Shown here one piece after another: positions 6,890 through 35,520 of a DNA stretch of 36,823 bases (the first letter of the stretch is position 1; every line of letters starts with the position of its first letter). Position numbers and translations under genes: made by a program. Where the stretch lies: positions 1 to 36,823 of the IMG/VR virus record IMGVR_UViG_3300045146_000185. One strand, written 5' to 3'. The notes beneath the pieces were generated by a model. That model worked only from the letters and a program-made list of their open reading frames with translations, did not search any database and was not told the origin of the DNA. Source of the DNA: a virus.

Positions 6890-6918
6890 TATATCCTAGA
6901 CTATCTTAAAAAGAGGTA
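6888..6918 (-). promoter_or_regulatory. Promoter of the ligase gene (middle-type motif)
   Basis: TTAAG (6909-6905), 11 bases, TATAAT (6893-6888) on the minus strand. The upstream box is TACCT in place of AAGCT. The promoter overlaps the last codons of the capsid-like gene. Confidence 0.7.
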
Positions 6919-7772
6919 AACGCTGTAAAATCAACTGGAATTTTTGTAGCAAAATGTGAGTTAGCGTCACCAGTGCTTTCATCAAGTGGGGTGCGTACAA
7001 GACCGACTCTGTTGATAACAACGATGGCAGATTCATCTACTGAGTAATCTTCCACTAATTTTTCAGCACTGATGTATGGAGCAACAATCACAGAACTATC
7101 ACCCATAGAATACCCTTTATGTCCCACGAGTACATAATCAGTGGTTGCATTGATATCCATAAATACCATTGTTCTACCAATTCGACCAACAAAGTCACGA
7201 TTCTTTGTGTTATCAGATTCTTGGAAAGCAATCATCCCAGCAGTACTCAATAATGAAGCAACTTTATAACTAACAATTACAAATGGACGTGTTCCACGTT
7301 TCGTTGCTATAGCCATTTCATACACGGCAGTATTGATTTTAGAAAGAATTTTAGTCCCTTCAGTTTCTGCATCTGTATTAGCCAATGTCAATGTTGCTGT
7401 TGGGGTAGCCATTGCATTCAACATATCGATAACGTTACTATCGATTTGATCTTTTGCATCTTCAGAAACGTTTGCAAATAAGAAGTCTTTACCATTCTTT
7501 TTATATGTTGCAGTAAAATCTTGGAACCACTCGTGAGAAAATCTTGCAGCAACTTTGATTTCATCCACTGTGAAATCACGTTTCATTGTCACCCATTTAG
7601 TGCCATCTCTTTTAGAAGCATATACAGCACCAGATGGACTATAACATGGTTGTATGTCACAAATTTGTTCTGCAATTGTATCTTTGAAAATTCGTTGAAC
7701 TAGTGGTCCAACAAATGTGTCTGTGCCTGCTACGTCTGAAGATGTAAACAATTCATTCTCATTCTTTATCAT
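6906..7772 (-). CDS. Compact gp23-like major capsid protein homologue, 288 aa
   Basis: HK97-fold capsid protein of the T4 gp23/gp24 family, by its pattern. Near the N-terminus FVGPLVQRIFKDTIAEQIC followed by DIQPC corresponds to the gp23 segment with MVRRxFPxLIAxDIVGVQPM. Later RGTRPFVIVSYKVASLL and TTDYVLVGHKGYSMGDSSV match the gp23 C-terminal half (a VGYKG-like loop and a strand ending in APYI). It is far shorter than gp23 (521 aa) or gp24 (427 aa) and lacks both the prosequence and room for the insertion domain. It is the last gene of a late operon of head-targeted proteins, overlapping its neighbour by ATGA. It could be an accessory or vertex capsid protein, or a minor head component; whether a full-size gp23 exists elsewhere cannot be seen. 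Confidence 0.6.
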   Translation of the reverse strand: MIKNENELFTSSDVAGTDTFVGPLVQRIFKDTIAEQICDIQPCYSPSGAVYASKRDGTKWVTMKRDFTVDEIKVAARFSHEWFQDFTATYKKNGKDFLFANVSEDAKDQIDSNVIDMLNAMATPTATLTLANTDAETEGTKILSKINTAVYEMAIATKRGTRPFVIVSYKVASLLSTAGMIAFQESDNTKNRDFVGRIGRTMVFMDINATTDYVLVGHKGYSMGDSSVIVAPYISAEKLVEDYSVDESAIVVINRVGLVRTPLDESTGDANSHFATKIPVDFTAFTSF

Positions 7773-8182
7773 ATTAATTCCTTTTCAATTATTGGATAAT
7801 TAGCTTTAATTTCGGACTCAGAAATTGTATTAATACTATTTAAACCCAAGACTTGAGTAATAACAGATTCTGAAACAGTTTTTGGAGTACCTTCTCTGAA
7901 CAAATAGAGAGCTACGAGTGCAGCAGTTAATTGTGAGTGACCCGTGAAACTTGTAACAATTTTCTTAATGTTCCAAACCATGATTTCGAATCTGCGCCAT
8001 ATTGTATTGCGCTCATCGTCTGTTGCCGTTCTTAATAGAACACCATTTTCGTCAATGATTCCAGCGTCGCAAGCTTTCCATTTAGCAAACGGAAGTGCGA
8101 ATAGTTTCATTAGTTGATATGTAACAATCATATCAACCATTCCACCCTCATTAATCATATTCATTTTACTTTCTGTTATCAT
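7769..8182 (-). CDS. Hypothetical protein of the head-protein operon, 137 aa
   Basis: The central motif MKLFALPFAKWKACDAG followed by IIDENG and a helical stretch WRRFEIMVWNIKKIV resembles a family I remember from T4-like marine phages, of unknown function. A helical hydrophobic segment around residues 83-97 (TAALVALYLF) may be buried and not membrane-spanning. The N-terminus MITESKM carries an ITE tripeptide but not the full capsid-targeting layout. ATGA overlaps on both sides place it between the 94-aa gene and the capsid homologue. A structural role is inferred from context only. Confidence 0.6.
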   Translation of the reverse strand: MITESKMNMINEGGMVDMIVTYQLMKLFALPFAKWKACDAGIIDENGVLLRTATDDERNTIWRRFEIMVWNIKKIVTSFTGHSQLTAALVALYLFREGTPKTVSESVITQVLGLNSINTISESEIKANYPIIEKELI

Positions 8183-8463
8183 TTGCGTATCCCCCGAATT
8201 TCTAAAACTACCGCTTCAAAAAGATCAGTGCTGTCTTGCTTAAATGAGTCTTTACAGTATACATTAATAAAATCGATGATACATTCCAATTCAAATGGTC
8301 TCAAGCAATCCAAAAACTTGTTTCTTACTTTTATATAGTTTTTATTGTCAGTTATCATCTTGATGAGCTTATCAACGTCTGATGCATCTCTGTAAAATTG
8401 TTCAGTCGTAGAGCATTTTCTTTTATACCCGTTCAACATGGCATTAATTCTTATTGATATCAT
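8179..8463 (-). CDS. Hypothetical protein, 94 aa
   Basis: Not recognised. It is small, mixed-charge and mostly helical by composition, with four cysteines (residues 17, 53, 61 and 70) and a hydrophobic helix ELECIIDFINVYC. No capsid-targeting-like start is visible. It overlaps the nucleotidyltransferase gene upstream and the 137-aa gene downstream by four bases each, so it is translationally coupled within the head-protein operon. A virion role is possible only by association. Confidence 0.6.
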   Translation of the reverse strand: MISIRINAMLNGYKRKCSTTEQFYRDASDVDKLIKMITDNKNYIKVRNKFLDCLRPFELECIIDFINVYCKDSFKQDSTDLFEAVVLEIRGIRK

Positions 8464-9032
8464 AGAATTTTCATACCTTGTTTTACTAAGTCGAATAGTT
8501 CTTTTGCGTCAGAATCTGTTGCAGTGCTTGGAAGATTGTCTTTGAATTCTTTAAACTTATTTAAGCTCACAAAATTTCTCATTGCTGTACCAGAAACGCC
8601 TTCAGTTCTGTTTCCTGATTTTACAACTTTAAAATCAGTGATACCCCATTGCTCTGTATATTTTGACATTTGTTTTTCAAATTCTTCTACTCTATCTTCG
8701 CCAACAATGAATGTGACTTTTGGGTATTTTTTACCAAGTTTTTCTAAAATTTGGAATGGAGTTTTAAGTTTAGCATCGTCAGAAACTGGAACTTGCATAA
8801 GTCTTTTGAGATACGCAATTTTGTCTTCAAATGTTAGAGGATTCTTTTTAGAATCATGTGAAGTTGTAGTGAACAACATGAAATCTGCATTGTTCTTTTT
8901 AGCATATGACTCGGCAAACTTTATGTTTTCTTCGTGACCACGTGTCATCGGATTAAATCTACCGATTGTCCAAACGATATGAGTCTTTGAGCCTTCTGTT
9001 AATGCTGAACAATACATATCAAATTTATTCAT
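8460..9032 (-). CDS. Cytidylyltransferase-like nucleotidyltransferase (NMN adenylyltransferase type) with head-targeting-like N-terminus
   Basis: 190 aa. After a leader MNKFDMYCSALTE, the core has GRFNPMTRGHEENI (residues 23-36), the (H/T)xGH nucleotide-binding motif, and VSGTAMR near 146-152, the second signature of the family. These enzymes transfer a nucleotide from ATP or CTP to a phosphorylated acceptor such as nicotinamide mononucleotide; the real substrate here is unknown. The leader ends in LTE, fitting prohead-protease cleavage after Glu13, with GSKTHIVW starting the enzyme fold. It is in the middle of the late operon, ATGA-overlapping both neighbours. Alternative roles include pantetheine-phosphate or other adenylyl transfer. 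No partner Nudix domain is fused, unlike some NadM proteins. Confidence 0.8.
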   Translation of the reverse strand: MNKFDMYCSALTEGSKTHIVWTIGRFNPMTRGHEENIKFAESYAKKNNADFMLFTTTSHDSKKNPLTFEDKIAYLKRLMQVPVSDDAKLKTPFQILEKLGKKYPKVTFIVGEDRVEEFEKQMSKYTEQWGITDFKVVKSGNRTEGVSGTAMRNFVSLNKFKEFKDNLPSTATDSDAKELFDLVKQGMKIL

Positions 9033-10087
9033 GAGATTCTAGCCTTTTCATGAGATGTCAATTCTGCTTCTTTACCGATCAGAAGATAAATTACGTTAGG
9101 AGAAACTTTACCAGCATTGTTTCTTAACTGGAATTGTGATTTATATTTTCTACCAAGCATCATTATTTCAAGATCTACGGCGAAATATTTTGAAGAAGGA
9201 GTGCGATAGCGAACACCCTTTACATTCACAACAACTTTTTCGCTAGGGTTTACTTTCTTAACTAGAGATTTAGAACCATTTTCATGAACGATGGTGTAAC
9301 CATATCCAAGACAGCTTTTGACGAAGTTTGTAAAGAATTCTTCACCATCTTCAATTTTTGGCTCAAATTTACTATCTGTTTCTATTTCAAAGTCTTTCTC
9401 GAATCTTTTATAGTCAGCACCCATTGCAGCAAGAAGAGTACGTCTGTCTTCGTCCCTTTTCAAGATACCAGTAAATCCACCGTTATATAGATAGAAGCTT
9501 GGACCAATTTTTAAAGAAAGATAAATCGATTTACCATCTTTGTTAACAAGAGTTACGTCTGTTACAGTTTCACCGATGTCAGAAGGTTTTCCATTAAGAA
9601 TGTCGTTCAGTGTACGTTTTTGATTTAGAGCACCCATCGGTTCTGGGGAGAATTGACGTAGGTCATCTGGATCAATATCATTTTCTTTGCAAATTTCATC
9701 GAACAAATGAGAATATGTACTTTCATACGACGTGTCTTCACACCAACGATTGAATTCAGATACAAATTCTGTTTCGAAAGCTCTACCCCCTCCGCCTTTA
9801 ACTTTAGTGTTTGGTTTGATAAGGATTTCGATGCTGTTATTTCTAATGCCACCGATACTTGACCCAGTAATGCTTCTATCACGTTTGAAATCTGGTATTT
9901 TGGCAATAATAACCTCCATAGCCAGCAGTCTATCCATGTCTGTTTTTACTATGAAACGTGTTTTTGTTTCTTTACGGAATTTGGCATCAGGTATAACTTC
10001 AAGTACTTCAACGCCGTGAACAAATTCCTCTGGTGAAATATCCACGATTGCTTCGAATATCTCATAAAATTTTTTGAATGATTCCAT
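9029..10087 (-). CDS. Predicted virion-packaged protein, possible PD-(D/E)xK-type nuclease, 352 aa
   Basis: The chosen start gives MESFKKFYEIFEAIVD, a capsid-targeting-like leader ending in IFE, and forms a TGATG junction with the gene before it; an in-frame ATG 12 bases upstream (10099) is the alternative. The core has GGGGRAFETEFVSEFNRW (98-115), then TDVTLVNKDG (176-185) and YLSLKIG (189-195). An E...D...xLK order is typical of PD-(D/E)xK nucleases, but the residue before LK is Ser and not Asp/Glu, so the nuclease call is tentative. Similar proteins with an LSLK strand occur, as I recall, in marine T4-like phages without a known function. It lies between the ligase-like gene and the nucleotidyltransferase, which suggests nucleic-acid end processing. 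Confidence 0.6.
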   Translation of the reverse strand: MESFKKFYEIFEAIVDISPEEFVHGVEVLEVIPDAKFRKETKTRFIVKTDMDRLLAMEVIIAKIPDFKRDRSITGSSIGGIRNNSIEILIKPNTKVKGGGGRAFETEFVSEFNRWCEDTSYESTYSHLFDEICKENDIDPDDLRQFSPEPMGALNQKRTLNDILNGKPSDIGETVTDVTLVNKDGKSIYLSLKIGPSFYLYNGGFTGILKRDEDRRTLLAAMGADYKRFEKDFEIETDSKFEPKIEDGEEFFTNFVKSCLGYGYTIVHENGSKSLVKKVNPSEKVVVNVKGVRYRTPSSKYFAVDLEIMMLGRKYKSQFQLRNNAGKVSPNVIYLLIGKEAELTSHEKARIS

Positions 10088-11286
10088 CAGTTTTTCCATT
10101 TCTTTAAGATTGTAAAGTTGTTTTTACTGAATTCTAGTCTGTCGACAAGCTTAACAGCACCGCCTTTTAATTTGTCCACTGCTACATAACCTTCTGGTGA
10201 CGTTGCTTTAAATCCGCTATCAGTTTCAACGAATGTAGACATACCAGCAATCATATCGAATTTATTTATAAGTATTCTTTTAATTTCTTGGATAGCTTGG
10301 TGAGTTTTAAGAACATACCATAGAGTACCAGCTACACTTCTGATATCCTGAATTTTCTTAATTTTTTGTCGCTCTACCTTTTGCTTACCACTGTCTGATT
10401 TTAACCTATCTTTATCTTTTTCATACTTAGCAGTAACGAAATCAATCAACCCCTTGACCATAGAGTCACTCACAGTCTGACCAATCTTAACCTTTGAATT
10501 TATGTAAGCTAAAATTTCTACACTATGTTCACCGATATATGTAAGCTCATCTTTATCGAATTTTTTAGAGTCAGCTTCGATATCATTAATCATGTTCATG
10601 ATATTATTATAATCTTCATCTGACAACATGACGTTCGATACTGGGATATTTGTAGTTGTATTGTATACAGATGTTACATCTCTATGAGAAGAAATATCGA
10701 TATTGAAAGATGCATTCAAATCTTCGATGGAAGTGCCACTATACGAAGTATGCCACGCCATTCCAATTTCTGTCTTCATGATATGTTTAGCCAAAGGGGA
10801 ATCATATGGAACTGCATAAACGATTGTATTTGGTCTAAATGTAAGATATTCAATTCCATCAATAGTTTGTTTTGAAAGCAATTTTTTAGTGAACATAACA
10901 TCACCTTGAATTACATTCTTGATTCCAAGTTTACTTAGATTACTCAATGCAACTTTAAGAGTTTCTGCTAGCCCACCATCACCGTGATTTGTATCTATGT
11001 CTTCTTCAGTATAATTGATTTTTGGATCTTTATTGAAGAGAGATTTTGTAGCTACGAAGAATTTACCATTTTCTGGATTAATTCCAGCAATTAAGCTGGG
11101 AGCACCATCAAATTTTCTTTGGATATCCATAGAGCCGTTACCACGAAGAATTTCTACATTCTGTTTCAAAAAGGATATACCAGTTTTTATACCTTCAACC
11201 CCATCTAGGATAATCAAGTCTTCTATGTGTTCAAGATGGGTTAGAGTAAGCCCAGCTTCTGTTAGATATAGATCAAATTTATTCAT
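10087..11286 (-). CDS. Ligase-like covalent nucleotidyltransferase with capsid-targeting-like N-terminus, 399 aa
   Basis: The start at 11286 is chosen because it gives MNKFDLYLTE-AGL, a ten-residue leader with Tyr7, Leu8 and Glu10 as in T4 capsid-targeting sequences, and overlaps the upstream stop (ATGAATAA). A TTG or ATG 30-33 bases upstream is possible. The body shows ligase-superfamily motifs: motif I RKFDG (Lys58, Asp60, Gly61), a motif III-like IQGDVMF (126-132), and near the C-terminus EGYVAVDKLKGGAVKLV, combining motifs IV and V. It is distinct from the gp30-type ligase at 5383-6861. The substrate (DNA, RNA or other) cannot be told. It sits beside a possible nuclease, an SNase-like gene and a nucleotidyltransferase in a late operon, so a virion-delivered repair or end-joining role is inferred. 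Confidence 0.7.
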   Translation of the reverse strand: MNKFDLYLTEAGLTLTHLEHIEDLIILDGVEGIKTGISFLKQNVEILRGNGSMDIQRKFDGAPSLIAGINPENGKFFVATKSLFNKDPKINYTEEDIDTNHGDGGLAETLKVALSNLSKLGIKNVIQGDVMFTKKLLSKQTIDGIEYLTFRPNTIVYAVPYDSPLAKHIMKTEIGMAWHTSYSGTSIEDLNASFNIDISSHRDVTSVYNTTTNIPVSNVMLSDEDYNNIMNMINDIEADSKKFDKDELTYIGEHSVEILAYINSKVKIGQTVSDSMVKGLIDFVTAKYEKDKDRLKSDSGKQKVERQKIKKIQDIRSVAGTLWYVLKTHQAIQEIKRILINKFDMIAGMSTFVETDSGFKATSPEGYVAVDKLKGGAVKLVDRLEFSKNNFTILKKWKN

Positions 11287-11554
11287 TGTCAACCATATAG
11301 GATAGCTGTTCGCCATCAATAAAAATTTCTGCTAAATATCTACCATCCTTGTCTTTTTTAGTTCTGATAATAATATCTGATTCTGTATCCATCATTTTTC
11401 TTAGGAAGTCACGAGCCAATTTACCTTCAGCTTTAAACTCGCCATTCAATCTGAATTTCTCTGTGATGACAATATTGAATCCAATATCTACTTCAGCAGT
11501 AAATGTATCACCATCGTATACGGCAACAACAGATTTCAATCTATATTCATACAC
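11279..11554 (-). CDS. Reduced staphylococcal-nuclease (SNase)-like domain protein, 91 aa
   Basis: The SNase OB-fold pattern is clear: VYDGDTFTAEV (12-22, with Asp14 and Asp16), FRLNG (34-38, Arg35) and KDGRYLAEIFIDG (69-81, Arg72). In classical SNase the strand with Arg35 is followed by the DTPE loop, which supplies a metal ligand and the general base Glu43. Here the chain goes straight from RLNGEF to KAEGKLARDFL, so that loop is missing. The protein may be inactive, or may use Glu39/Glu43 differently; binding without cutting is possible. The start is GTG at 11554, with AAGG 7 bases upstream, inside the end of the EF-hand gene; its stop overlaps the ligase-like gene. It has no capsid-targeting-like leader. 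Confidence 0.75.
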   Translation of the reverse strand: MYEYRLKSVVAVYDGDTFTAEVDIGFNIVITEKFRLNGEFKAEGKLARDFLRKMMDTESDIIIRTKKDKDGRYLAEIFIDGEQLSYMVDNE

Positions 11555-12144
11555 TCTTTTGCCTTACGAGGTCTTGATTTTCTACGTTGAGAAGCTTTGA
11601 TAGCAGATTTAACTCTGTCTTTGATATCTTTTTTAGACATCTTTATTTCTTTGCCGTCGACAAGCTTATAACCTGGACGACCAGATTTTTTACTAATTTT
11701 GTCTATGGAAACTTTTTTGATTACACCTTCATATACACGTGCTCTACCATCAGCAGGGATTACATCATCTGGTTCTTCGAAACGATTTTCAAGATATGAA
11801 GCAACTAAGTCAATTACTTCCATCAATGCACCCTTAGAAAGGTGTTTTACCATTTCATAAACGTCATCGGCTGTGATTTGACCATCACCATCGATGTCGT
11901 AATCTTCTTCATCTTCGTCTTCTTCGAATTCTTCATCTTCGTCTTCTTCGAATTCTTCATCTTCTTCTTCGCATTCTTCTTCTTCGAATTCGTCTTCGTC
12001 GACAGCTTCAGAAACTTTGTCTTCAACTTTCTTAATTTTCTTTTTATCACCAACTACAGAATTAACTGTAGCTACATCACCAGATACTGTTACACAGCTA
12101 TCTTCTTCTGCCAAATATTGTTCGAATTTTGATTTATAGTTCAT
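11536..12144 (-). CDS. Acidic EF-hand protein with capsid-targeting-like N-terminus, 202 aa
   Basis: The leader MNYKSKFEQYLAE-ED ends in LAE, a fit to prohead-protease cleavage. Residues 49-81 are almost entirely Glu and Asp, encoded by imperfect 24-bp tandem repeats. Directly after comes a canonical 12-residue EF-hand loop, Asp83 to Asp94 (DIDGDGQITADD), followed by helices. The C-terminal 60 residues are strongly basic, with RRKSRPRKAK near the end; basic tails of this kind occur in head and core proteins of T4-like marine phages. A calcium-binding, DNA-charge-balancing internal head protein is a reasonable inference. It is the second gene of the late operon, 12 bases after the 121-aa gene, with AAGGGG as ribosome binding site. 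Confidence 0.72.
   Translation of the reverse strand: MNYKSKFEQYLAEEDSCVTVSGDVATVNSVVGDKKKIKKVEDKVSEAVDEDEFEEEECEEEDEEFEEDEDEEFEEDEDEEDYDIDGDGQITADDVYEMVKHLSKGALMEVIDLVASYLENRFEEPDDVIPADGRARVYEGVIKKVSIDKISKKSGRPGYKLVDGKEIKMSKKDIKDRVKSAIKASQRRKSRPRKAKECMNID
11908..11980 (-). repeat. 24-bp tandem repeat coding an acidic tract
   Basis: Two adjacent 24-bp copies (11908-11931 and 11932-11955) followed by a diverged third copy. They encode repeats of the FEEDEDEE type. Length change by slippage in steps of eight codons would keep the frame. Confidence 0.7.
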
Positions 12145-12156
12145 GAAGTTATCCCC

Positions 12157-12522
12157 TTAGAAAATTACCATAGTGATTGTTGAAGAGTCAGAATCATATC
12201 TGTTCTTTTGAATGGTGAACTCGTCATTGAATTTACTATCGAGTAATTCATACAATACACCAGTTTCCAATTTAGCAAAAGAACCACCGAATGTAAGCAT
12301 CATGATACCAGTATTGATTCTTTGAACGTTACGGAAAGAATTGAATGCATAACGCTTGATAAACGGTTCAATTTTTTTATAAATCTCACCCATGTCTCTT
12401 GTTGGGATTGTTTTATCAAGCTCTTTCTTTTTAGGTTCTGTCACCCCAGCTGGTTTTGCTGGAGTATCAGTGTCAGCTTCTTTTGCGGCGACATCTGCCT
12501 CATATAATTTGAATTTGTCCAT
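12157..12522 (-). CDS. Predicted virion-internal protein, first gene of the late operon, 121 aa
   Basis: The start at 12522 gives MDKFKLYE-ADVAAKEAD, a short capsid-targeting-like leader ending in LYE; a TTG one codon earlier is less likely because AGG lies 8-9 bases before the ATG. Residues 9-40 are Ala/Pro/Lys-rich and probably flexible. Residues 45-121 look globular (RDMGEIYKKIEPFIKRYAF, then beta strands). No enzyme motif was recognised. A late-type promoter, CTTTAAATA, lies 28 bases upstream, and the operon continues to the capsid homologue at 6906. Confidence 0.68.
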   Translation of the reverse strand: MDKFKLYEADVAAKEADTDTPAKPAGVTEPKKKELDKTIPTRDMGEIYKKIEPFIKRYAFNSFRNVQRINTGIMMLTFGGSFAKLETGVLYELLDSKFNDEFTIQKNRYDSDSSTITMVIF

Positions 12523-12549
12523 CAATCAACCTATGTGTTTTAATACTAT

Positions 12550-12558
12550 TATTTAAAG
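12550..12558 (-). promoter_or_regulatory. Late promoter of the head-protein operon
   Basis: CTTTAAATA on the minus strand, 28 bases before the ATG of the first operon gene. The same nonamer precedes the 155-aa gene and the 86-aa gene. It resembles the T4 late -10 TATAAATA, which the gp55 sigma factor recognises with gp33 and gp45; homologues of all three are encoded in this window. Confidence 0.65.
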
Positions 12559-22834: not shown

Positions 22835-23446
22835 TTATTTATATTTCTTGGCATCTTCACGATTAGCAATAATGCCATCGATTAGACCATACGAAAGAGC
22901 TTCTTCTGCACTCATGAACCAGTCACGCTCAGTGATTCGTTTGACTTCATCAAGTGTCATGGTGCCGTTACTCTTCTCATGAATTTTTGTAATCAACGCA
23001 TTTTGCAAGAATTCAGATTCAGTCATTTGTACTTTCATGTCATGGTAGTTACCTACTACACCGCCTGAAAGCGAATGATACATAATCCGAGTACTTGGAA
23101 GAGATAGACGTTTGTCAGCGATTGTTAACAAATATGACCCCATGCTACAAGCCTGCCCCATTGCAATTGCATAAACGGGACATTCAATAAATGCCATCGT
23201 ATCGGCAATTGCCAGACCAGATGTAATCTGCCCTCCAGGACTATTGATATACATGAAAATTGGTTTTGTAGGATCTTGTTTCTCGAGATACAACAATTGA
23301 GAACACAAAATGGTACTCATATCATCTTCTATTTCACCAGAAAGCAAAATGACACGGTCTTTCAACAAACGAGAAAAAAGAGGAAATGTTTTTTCTACTC
23401 CTCTTCCTTCTGTTTCGATTACCATAGGTTCAAAAACTAAACTCAT
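22835..23446 (-). CDS. clpP: ClpP-like serine protease
   Basis: 203 aa, the full length of ClpP (E. coli ClpP is 207). The catalytic triad is complete: Ser101 in MGQACSMGS, His124 in IMYHSLSGG and Asp175 in TERDWFMS. INSPGG (68-72) and the C-terminal SYGLIDGII are also standard. No Clp ATPase is encoded here, so it may form rings that use a host ClpX/ClpA, mix with host ClpP, or act alone. Head maturation in T4-like phages uses gp21, so this is not an obvious prohead protease. It overlaps the upstream 90-aa gene by ATGA and shares the transcript with gp43. Confidence 0.92.
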   Translation of the reverse strand: MSLVFEPMVIETEGRGVEKTFPLFSRLLKDRVILLSGEIEDDMSTILCSQLLYLEKQDPTKPIFMYINSPGGQITSGLAIADTMAFIECPVYAIAMGQACSMGSYLLTIADKRLSLPSTRIMYHSLSGGVVGNYHDMKVQMTESEFLQNALITKIHEKSNGTMTLDEVKRITERDWFMSAEEALSYGLIDGIIANREDAKKYK

Positions 23447-29968: not shown

Positions 29969-31114
29969 TTAAATCTCTGTTATTGTCCACATTTCATCTG
30001 TGATATGAATAAATTTACCCTTTTGTACAATAATATTCGACGTATTTTTTTCTCTCAAATATTTTTTGAAAATACTTATTGGTAATTTTTCTTCATATTC
30101 TTTAAAAAATTGGATAGAATATCCAGTAAAAATTATTTTATTTTTTCTCTTGACCTTAATCTTTTTTGTATTTCTTGATACATATTTAGACGTATCATAT
30201 TCTTCTGTAGATATCATTATCTTTTCACCAGTATATATATCAATAGCTGGTATTAATCCAGATGTTGTGAATTTTGACCGTGTAAACTGACCAATTCTCC
30301 ACCCTTCATTTATTTTTAAAAATTCATCAACATTATCTCTTTCTATCAATTTTTGAATTTTTGATTCATCATGACAGACATATATTTTGTTTCTTTCATC
30401 GTTAAGCGTGTTTATTCCGATTTTCCAACCATTTTTAGTATAAAAATCCAATTCTTCTTCAGCTATATATCGGACATTGTCTTGAAAGTATATACCTATA
30501 GTTCCTTTATTGTGTGATGTTAATCTACCACAACTCCAATATCTATACTCTAATGAATTAATCTCAATTCTGGGTATTTTCTTTTCTTCAACTCCATTAT
30601 TCACCCAGCAATATAATGAGCTAGCCTGACTCCCATTATTTATTCCATGATTGTTGAAGAATTGATTTTGAGTAGAAAGCAGATCATTCATCTCGTGTAT
30701 GGTGAAATATTCTTTTTTATAAGACCCCAAAATATGTTTATTGAAAAATAATTTCATACCAGAAGGCTGAAATTTTGATAGAACATTATTATATAATTGT
30801 TCTTTGGCTTCTAATACAAAAGATTCACCCTTAGACGTACATAGATGTAATATCTCTCTTCTATAATATTGTTCTCCATCACAACGGATTGCCTCTTTCA
30901 GCCATTCACTAGAGCCATAATATGTAATCCAATCTGACTCATATTTTATTCTTTTATTTCTGCCCGCTTTGATTTTTTTTGAGAACCAAAATGATTTTTT
31001 ACCTATATAGTACTTTGGATATTTTTCATCATCCTTTAATCTTGTTATCAAATATACAAATGAATCATATTTCTCAATATCTTCACCAAATTCTTCATTT
31101 CTATAAAACCACAT
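29969..31114 (-). CDS. GIY-YIG-family endonuclease, probably homing, 381 aa
   Basis: The N-terminal 110 residues match phage GIY-YIG enzymes: FVYLITRLKDDEKYPKYYIG, then GKKSFW, ESDWITYYGSS and a Glu-bearing helix SFVLEAKEQL. The remainder holds repeated segments ending in GWKIGI, GWRIGQ and WVNNGVEEKK, as in DNA-binding modules of phage homing enzymes. It stands between uvsW and gp55, is richer in A+T than its neighbours by eye, and has no promoter of its own, which suits a free-standing homing endonuclease that spreads between related phages. It starts 7 bases after the uvsW stop. Confidence 0.78.
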   Translation of the reverse strand: MWFYRNEEFGEDIEKYDSFVYLITRLKDDEKYPKYYIGKKSFWFSKKIKAGRNKRIKYESDWITYYGSSEWLKEAIRCDGEQYYRREILHLCTSKGESFVLEAKEQLYNNVLSKFQPSGMKLFFNKHILGSYKKEYFTIHEMNDLLSTQNQFFNNHGINNGSQASSLYCWVNNGVEEKKIPRIEINSLEYRYWSCGRLTSHNKGTIGIYFQDNVRYIAEEELDFYTKNGWKIGINTLNDERNKIYVCHDESKIQKLIERDNVDEFLKINEGWRIGQFTRSKFTTSGLIPAIDIYTGEKIMISTEEYDTSKYVSRNTKKIKVKRKNKIIFTGYSIQFFKEYEEKLPISIFKKYLREKNTSNIIVQKGKFIHITDEMWTITEI

Positions 31115-35295: not shown

Positions 35296-35369
35296 AAGTG
35301 AATTTGAAGTTTCAAATAGTTTAAATAATAGTATCACTAAGTGTGAGATTAAAGTTTAAATAGTTTATA

Positions 35370-35473
35370 CTTTAAATAGTTTAAATAATAATATCACTAA
35401 TAAGTGAGATTAAAGTTTAAATAGTTTATACTTTAAATAGTTTAAATACTTTAAATAGTTTATACTTTAAATA
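35370..35473 (+). promoter_or_regulatory. Cluster of four rightward late promoter-like motifs
   Basis: CTTTAAATA on the plus strand at 35370, 35431, 35449 and 35465, the nonamer that precedes late genes on the minus strand. Several TTTAAATA without the C are interspersed. All face the gene-free right end. Confidence 0.45.
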
Positions 35474-35520
35474 GTTTAAATAGTAATAGTTTAAATAGTT
35501 TAAATAATAGCATCACTACA

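Follow-up and report, generated by a model that had tools for sequence, protein, structure and literature searches.

The window analysed here, 36.8 kb from an IMG/VR record, is a genome fragment from an uncultivated T4-like phage. It carries genes for replication and recombination (gp41, gp43, gp44/62, gp45, gp46/47, gp32, UvsX, UvsY and UvsW) and also encodes gp55 and gp33. The fragment holds no head module, and the gp20-gp23 head region including gp21 is absent from these 36.8 kb. Downstream of gp41, an operon on the minus strand comprises the following features:

12550-12557, minus strand: late-promoter-like TTTAAATA within CTTTAAATA, 35 nt upstream of the p122 start
12157-12522, minus strand: p122, a small protein with the leader MDKFKLYE and a weak phrog_4830 match
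11536-12144, minus strand: p202, an acidic EF-hand/dockerin-like protein (DIDGDGQITADD) with the leader MNYKSKFEQYLAE
11279-11554, minus strand: SNase-like protein with a GTG start, without leader (PF00565, E 7e-5; phrog_452 endonuclease, E 1e-12)
10087-11286, minus strand: DUF6267 protein with the leader MNKFDLYLTE (PF19782, E 4e-94)
9029-10087, minus strand: p356, a probable PD-(D/E)xK-type nuclease (phrog_8438 and motifs) with the leader MESFKKFYEIFE
8460-9032, minus strand: cytidylyltransferase/NMNAT-like protein with the leader MNKFDMYCSALTE (PF01467, E 2e-8; phrog_3041, E 1e-38)
7769-8463, minus strand: p137 (phrog_2086) and p94, small proteins without leader, between the cytidylyltransferase and the gp23-like gene
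6906-7772, minus strand: short gp23-family paralogue of 288 aa, without leader or propeptide (PF07068, E 1e-29; phrog_138)

The cyanophage counterpart of this cassette lies after gp41 and before gp61. In the slot of the short gp23 paralogue, cyanophages have small virion proteins that resemble the N-terminal arm of mature gp23, for example S-CREM2 gp160 and S-SCSM1 gp97. Scans of viral contigs with the p356, cytidylyltransferase, gp23-like and p122 sequences as queries returned only a near-identical sister contig of 7.3 kb. The first-pass annotation had placed the operon behind a late promoter. The word ahead of p122 makes this a weak candidate on sequence grounds, but the T4 late consensus TATAAATA does not occur at the operon. 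Three other genes likewise have TTTAAATA or CTTAAATA within the 40 nt that precede them. Dense AGTTTAAAT/TTTAAATAGTTTATAC repeats at positions 35353-35506 are similar to the late-promoter-like word.

Five of the first six genes after gp41 (p122, the EF-hand-like p202, DUF6267, p356 and the cytidylyltransferase) open with a leader of the pattern M-x2-5-[FY]-x-x-[FY]...[LIVM]-x-E. The first-pass annotation had described these leaders; all five are present, and most of their start codons are backed by a stop/start overlap or a ribosome-binding site. For DUF6267, the ATG at 11286 is likely the true start, while the longest open reading frame opens with a TTG at 11319. The ATG of p356 at 10087 overlaps the DUF6267 stop (TGATG), and the junction between p356 and the cytidylyltransferase is an ATGA overlap. 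Among the operon genes inspected, the SNase-like gene, p94, p137 and the gp23-like gene have no leader.

The internal proteins IPI, IPII and IPIII of T4 carry a 10-residue capsid-targeting sequence (CTS; PMC9026906, PMC3012670), in which, for IPIII, residues 4 and 7 serve targeting and residues 8 and 10 processing (PMC9026906). The DUF6267 leader is in the exact register of the T4 CTS, and that of the EF-hand-like protein has the same register offset by 3. In the p122 leader, the aromatic residues F4 and Y7 are combined with L6-x-E8. For this leader, as well as for those of p356 and the cytidylyltransferase (three of the five), the spacing between the aromatic residues and the Glu differs from T4, and cleavage of these three could therefore be poor.

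A broad hydrophobic motif was dropped, since it showed little or no enrichment compared to internal positions, and a stricter rule based on T4 residues was used instead. This rule covers CTS residues 4, 7, 8 and 10, with a spacing tolerance that was fixed after the leaders were known. It selects 5 of the 41 genes in the window, precisely the five leader carriers, while the internal background amounts to 30/9581 (0.31%). The binomial probability of at least five hits in 41 genes at this rate is ∼2e-8, which is optimistic because the tolerance was set with the leaders already in view; conservation in relatives is independent of that choice. Across the window and six other genomes, 6 of 988 called starts carry the motif in exact register, compared with 1 of 5033 internal Met, and this lone internal match is the DUF6267 leader of the window itself, which lies inside a longer called open reading frame. 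The loose motif is also approximated by the N-termini of UvsX in some relatives, which were counted as false positives.

We then looked at conservation of the leader in relatives. The invariance of E10 in an alignment of 16 DUF6267 proteins was discounted, since all rows had been chosen by their leader, and a leader-blind count was substituted. In this set, which comprises 48 distinct homologues of DUF6267 from viral contigs, 37 follow the leader rules, 26 of them in the exact T4 register; the relaxed matches L005 and L011, which are counted in the 37, lie far upstream of the DUF6267 core and may be due to chance. In most of the remaining homologues, the spacer is longer, an alternative start codon is used or there is a fusion at the N-terminus. 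The core of the homologues shares ∼30-39% identity with the window protein, and the linkers between leader and conserved core vary in length. The first-pass annotation had also suggested a search for the same leader in other genes. No further carrier was found among the 41 genes of the window. In the relatives, no fewer than a dozen additional families bear the leader around DUF6267, among them nuclease-like proteins, a DUF6321 protein and a polynucleotide-kinase-phosphatase-like HAD protein. At these loci, 146 of 2926 Met near open reading frame starts are followed by a leader versus 11 of 4555 internal ones. The cultured Methylophilales phage Melnitz has a row of four genes whose products start with MQGFKTFLSE, MINFSKYITE, MKKFSELTSE and MKKFSEIIEA; its leader carriers are DUF6267, the cytidylyltransferase and two more proteins.

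Every relative with a full gp23 in its record, ten in all, also encodes the protease gp21 (PF03420, Peptidase S77). Several likely gp23 propeptide cleavage sites of relatives resemble the ends of the leaders, for example AFLSE/AAPTN and SLLGE/AAPTN. A ClpP-family protease gene of the window (22835-23446; PF00574, E 6e-54), which adjoins the DNA polymerase gene and is labelled head maturation protease in PHROGs, was weighed as a head protease; it is not gp21.

Published virion proteomes of cyanophages allow a comparison with detected proteins. A relative of the cytidylyltransferase is the S-SM1 virion protein GC190 (PMC3037559), whose N-terminus is MKKFSAFLNEAE. Of the listed virion proteins of S-CREM2 (Table 3 of PMC10665884), the cytidylyltransferase starts with MKNFSSFLTEAD and three others with MKDFDSFLEEFD, MKRFDAFLTEEE and MKDLHSFLTEQD; the virion SAM lyase (PF23780) and an APH-like kinase have exact leaders, and gp13 is also leader-bearing. 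The virion NMNAT of S-SCSM1 opens with MKSFLQFLKEAA, and the related virion enzyme of S-SZBM1 with MRFRQFIIEAV. Leader-bearing cytidylyltransferases are thus virion proteins in four phages, and in three of these the gene takes the place after gp41, as in the window. The DUF6267 proteins of S-CREM2, S-SCSM1 and S-SZBM1 lack a leader, unlike that of the window, and are not on the published virion lists (for S-SZBM1, over most rows of its table). Likewise, the genes for a DNA methylase and an EcoRI-like protein nearby in S-CREM2 lack the leader, and their products are absent from the virion list. When S-CREM2, S-SCSM1 and S-SM1 were pooled, five of six exact-leader proteins were virion proteins versus ∼19% overall (Fisher P = 0.001, with approximate totals of open reading frames). 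S-SCSM1 gp30, which has an exact leader yet no virion annotation, counts against packaging. Neither DUF6267 nor p356 is among the virion-detected leader-bearing homologues. A further S-CREM2 virion protein, annotated as Cas9 (L164:4205-6814), contains RFASFMAEAA ∼18 residues from its start and has no Pfam match.

Taken together, the leaders and the virion data of relatives suggest that the five proteins of the window are packaged via a T4-type capsid-targeting leader, to which we assign a probability of about 0.8. This reading, already put forward in the first-pass annotation, is well supported because of the T4 register, the conservation over large distances, the occurrence of the same leader on unrelated cargo, the presence of gp21 in relatives and the mass spectrometry of homologues in virions. 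For the phage of the window itself, we infer packaging, cleavage and injection, as well as all enzyme activities named here.

Three other explanations have to be weighed. The leader could be an amphipathic N-terminal helix that docks the enzymes to a shared intracellular partner, such as the replisome or the membrane, and plays no role in packaging. A location between gp41 and gp61, as in cyanophages, would suit a replication function, and in the structure model of DUF6267 the leader is of low confidence and mostly unstructured, as expected of a docking peptide. But the pattern ends in a gp21-type [LIVM]-x-E and matches T4 CTS positions 4, 7, 8 and 10, and leader-bearing homologues occur in purified virions while their leaderless neighbours are unreported there (for S-SZBM1, in most rows of the table), which makes intracellular docking unlikely. 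Virion detection in relatives could also reflect carry-over of abundant late proteins, combined with a likeness of leaders that stems from duplicated 5' gene ends and not from function. The S-CREM2 authors themselves raised possible carry-over of abundant proteins in their virion mass spectrometry (PMC10665884). However, detection tracks the presence of the leader in several phages, and the leader is kept across homologues of ∼30-39% identity with variable linkers, so that we regard this explanation as slightly less probable still than docking. Finally, in a genome rich in AT, short N-termini with many lysines and aromatic residues could resemble the CTS by chance, and the loose motif does arise in this way, as in UvsX. 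The selection of precisely five clustered genes out of 41, even with an optimistic probability, and their conservation in relatives argue strongly against this, and we consider it highly improbable.

The cargo proteins resemble enzymes. DUF6267 scored 316 bits against PF19782 (curated cut-off 27). Its motifs K58-x-D60-G61, E365-G366 and K379 are invariant in 16 aligned sequences, and their placement is that of ligase-type nucleotidyltransferases. In the structure model (pLDDT 85), the leader is of low confidence and mostly disordered. Foldseek retrieved DNA-ligase adenylation domains as top matches of this model, with a best E of 0.21, which is not significant, and phmmer against solved structures gave nothing convincing. 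From motifs and fold, we predict a ligase-like nucleotidyltransferase. The cytidylyltransferase contains the motifs GRFNPMTRGH and VSGTAMR of the HxGH superfamily (PF01467); it stays below the cut-off of the NMN adenylyltransferase equivalog TIGR00482 (20.9 bits, cut-off 112). Its relatives are found in 521 phage records, and several contigs encode it as a fusion with DUF6267. For p356, which has no Pfam match, the segments GRAFETEF and TDVTL..IYLSLKIG, partly shared with proteins of S-RIM32 and S-SM1, were recognized by eye and, as a signature without statistical support, point to a probable PD-(D/E)xK-type nuclease; a single-sequence structure model was discarded as unusable (pLDDT 33). The D-x-D-x-D-G motif of the EF-hand-like p202 recurs in the S-SCSM1 virion protein gp92. 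The nucleic-acid processing set proposed in the first-pass annotation stands as a prediction, with fold and motifs as its basis. Elsewhere in the window, the PHROGs label NAD synthetase (phrog_447) at 29969-31114 was rejected, since the protein begins with a GIY-YIG endonuclease domain of the SegE type.

If the leaders act as in T4, the aromatic residues 4 and 7 would dock each protein onto the scaffold core of the prohead late in infection, and a gp21-type protease would then cut behind the Glu of [LIVM]-x-E. The freed enzymes would remain in the head amid the DNA and enter the host together with it, where their targets, right at the onset of infection, could be the ends of nucleic acids or the pools of nucleotides and NAD. 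Their purpose would most likely be counter-defence or genome protection; counter-defence taken alone is a tentative assignment, with odds somewhat below even. Even more speculatively, aquatic T4-like phages might inject a modular, leader-tagged kit of a nuclease, a ligase-type nucleotidyltransferase and a nucleotide/NAD adenylyltransferase, which would repair or protect the entering DNA, or reset the nucleotide pools of the host, ahead of all phage gene expression. In relatives, this kit might also include the polynucleotide-kinase-phosphatase-like HAD protein, the SAM lyase and the kinase.

T4 provides the precedent for this kind of system. The window shares with the T4 internal proteins a leader of the form M-x-x-[YF]-x-x-[FY]-[LIM]-x-E on otherwise unrelated proteins, and gp21 is present in its relatives. 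In contrast, the T4 internal proteins are small, with IPI blocking a restriction enzyme, whereas the cargo of the window is enzyme-like and its operon adjoins gp41. T4 Alt, an ADP-ribosyltransferase that is cut by gp21 and injected, offers a parallel as an enzyme that is packaged and delivered with the genome, but its leader is more distant from the consensus of the window, and none of the cassette proteins matched an ADP-ribosyltransferase domain. The fusions of DUF6267 and cytidylyltransferase (phrog_455) have one common leader, whereas in the window the genes are separate with one leader each. According to the first-pass annotation, no such set had been described. Virion association of the cytidylyltransferase has in fact been published for at least four cyanophages, but no paper was found that ties in the CTS or a co-packaged set: the accessible text of the papers on the S-SM1, S-SCSM1, S-SZBM1 and S-CREM2 enzymes does not mention a targeting leader, and in the literature searched, which covers few subscription journals, none was found that joins leader, enzyme set and virion data. 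New aspects are the breadth of enzyme cargo, its conservation across T4-like phages of aquatic origin, and the tie to virion data.

A readable leader would allow injected proteins to be predicted from many so far anonymous genes of abundant aquatic phages and provide a sequence handle for finding genome-delivered counter-defence proteins. It also offers a reason for the puzzling published detection of cytidylyltransferases in cyanophage virions. This reading predicts a cut behind the Glu, which existing mass-spectrometry data could show.

Two further observations concern repeats and leader-adjacent sequences. The contig end (36341-36823) carries short tandem repeats (TAGATCAGAA, CCAGAGTAAG and AATCTATTCA). 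Behind the leader, the cytidylyltransferases of S-SM1 and S-SCSM1 and one DUF6267 protein have a module L-x-L...GYGRYAD..G..TH.S..GKLV in common, which was also seen by eye in the S-CREM2 kinase:

L162:8257-9420, L166:13820-15049, L067 and L164:7080-9347: post-leader GYGRYAD module

Judging from its sequence and position, this module is perhaps a second packaging element.
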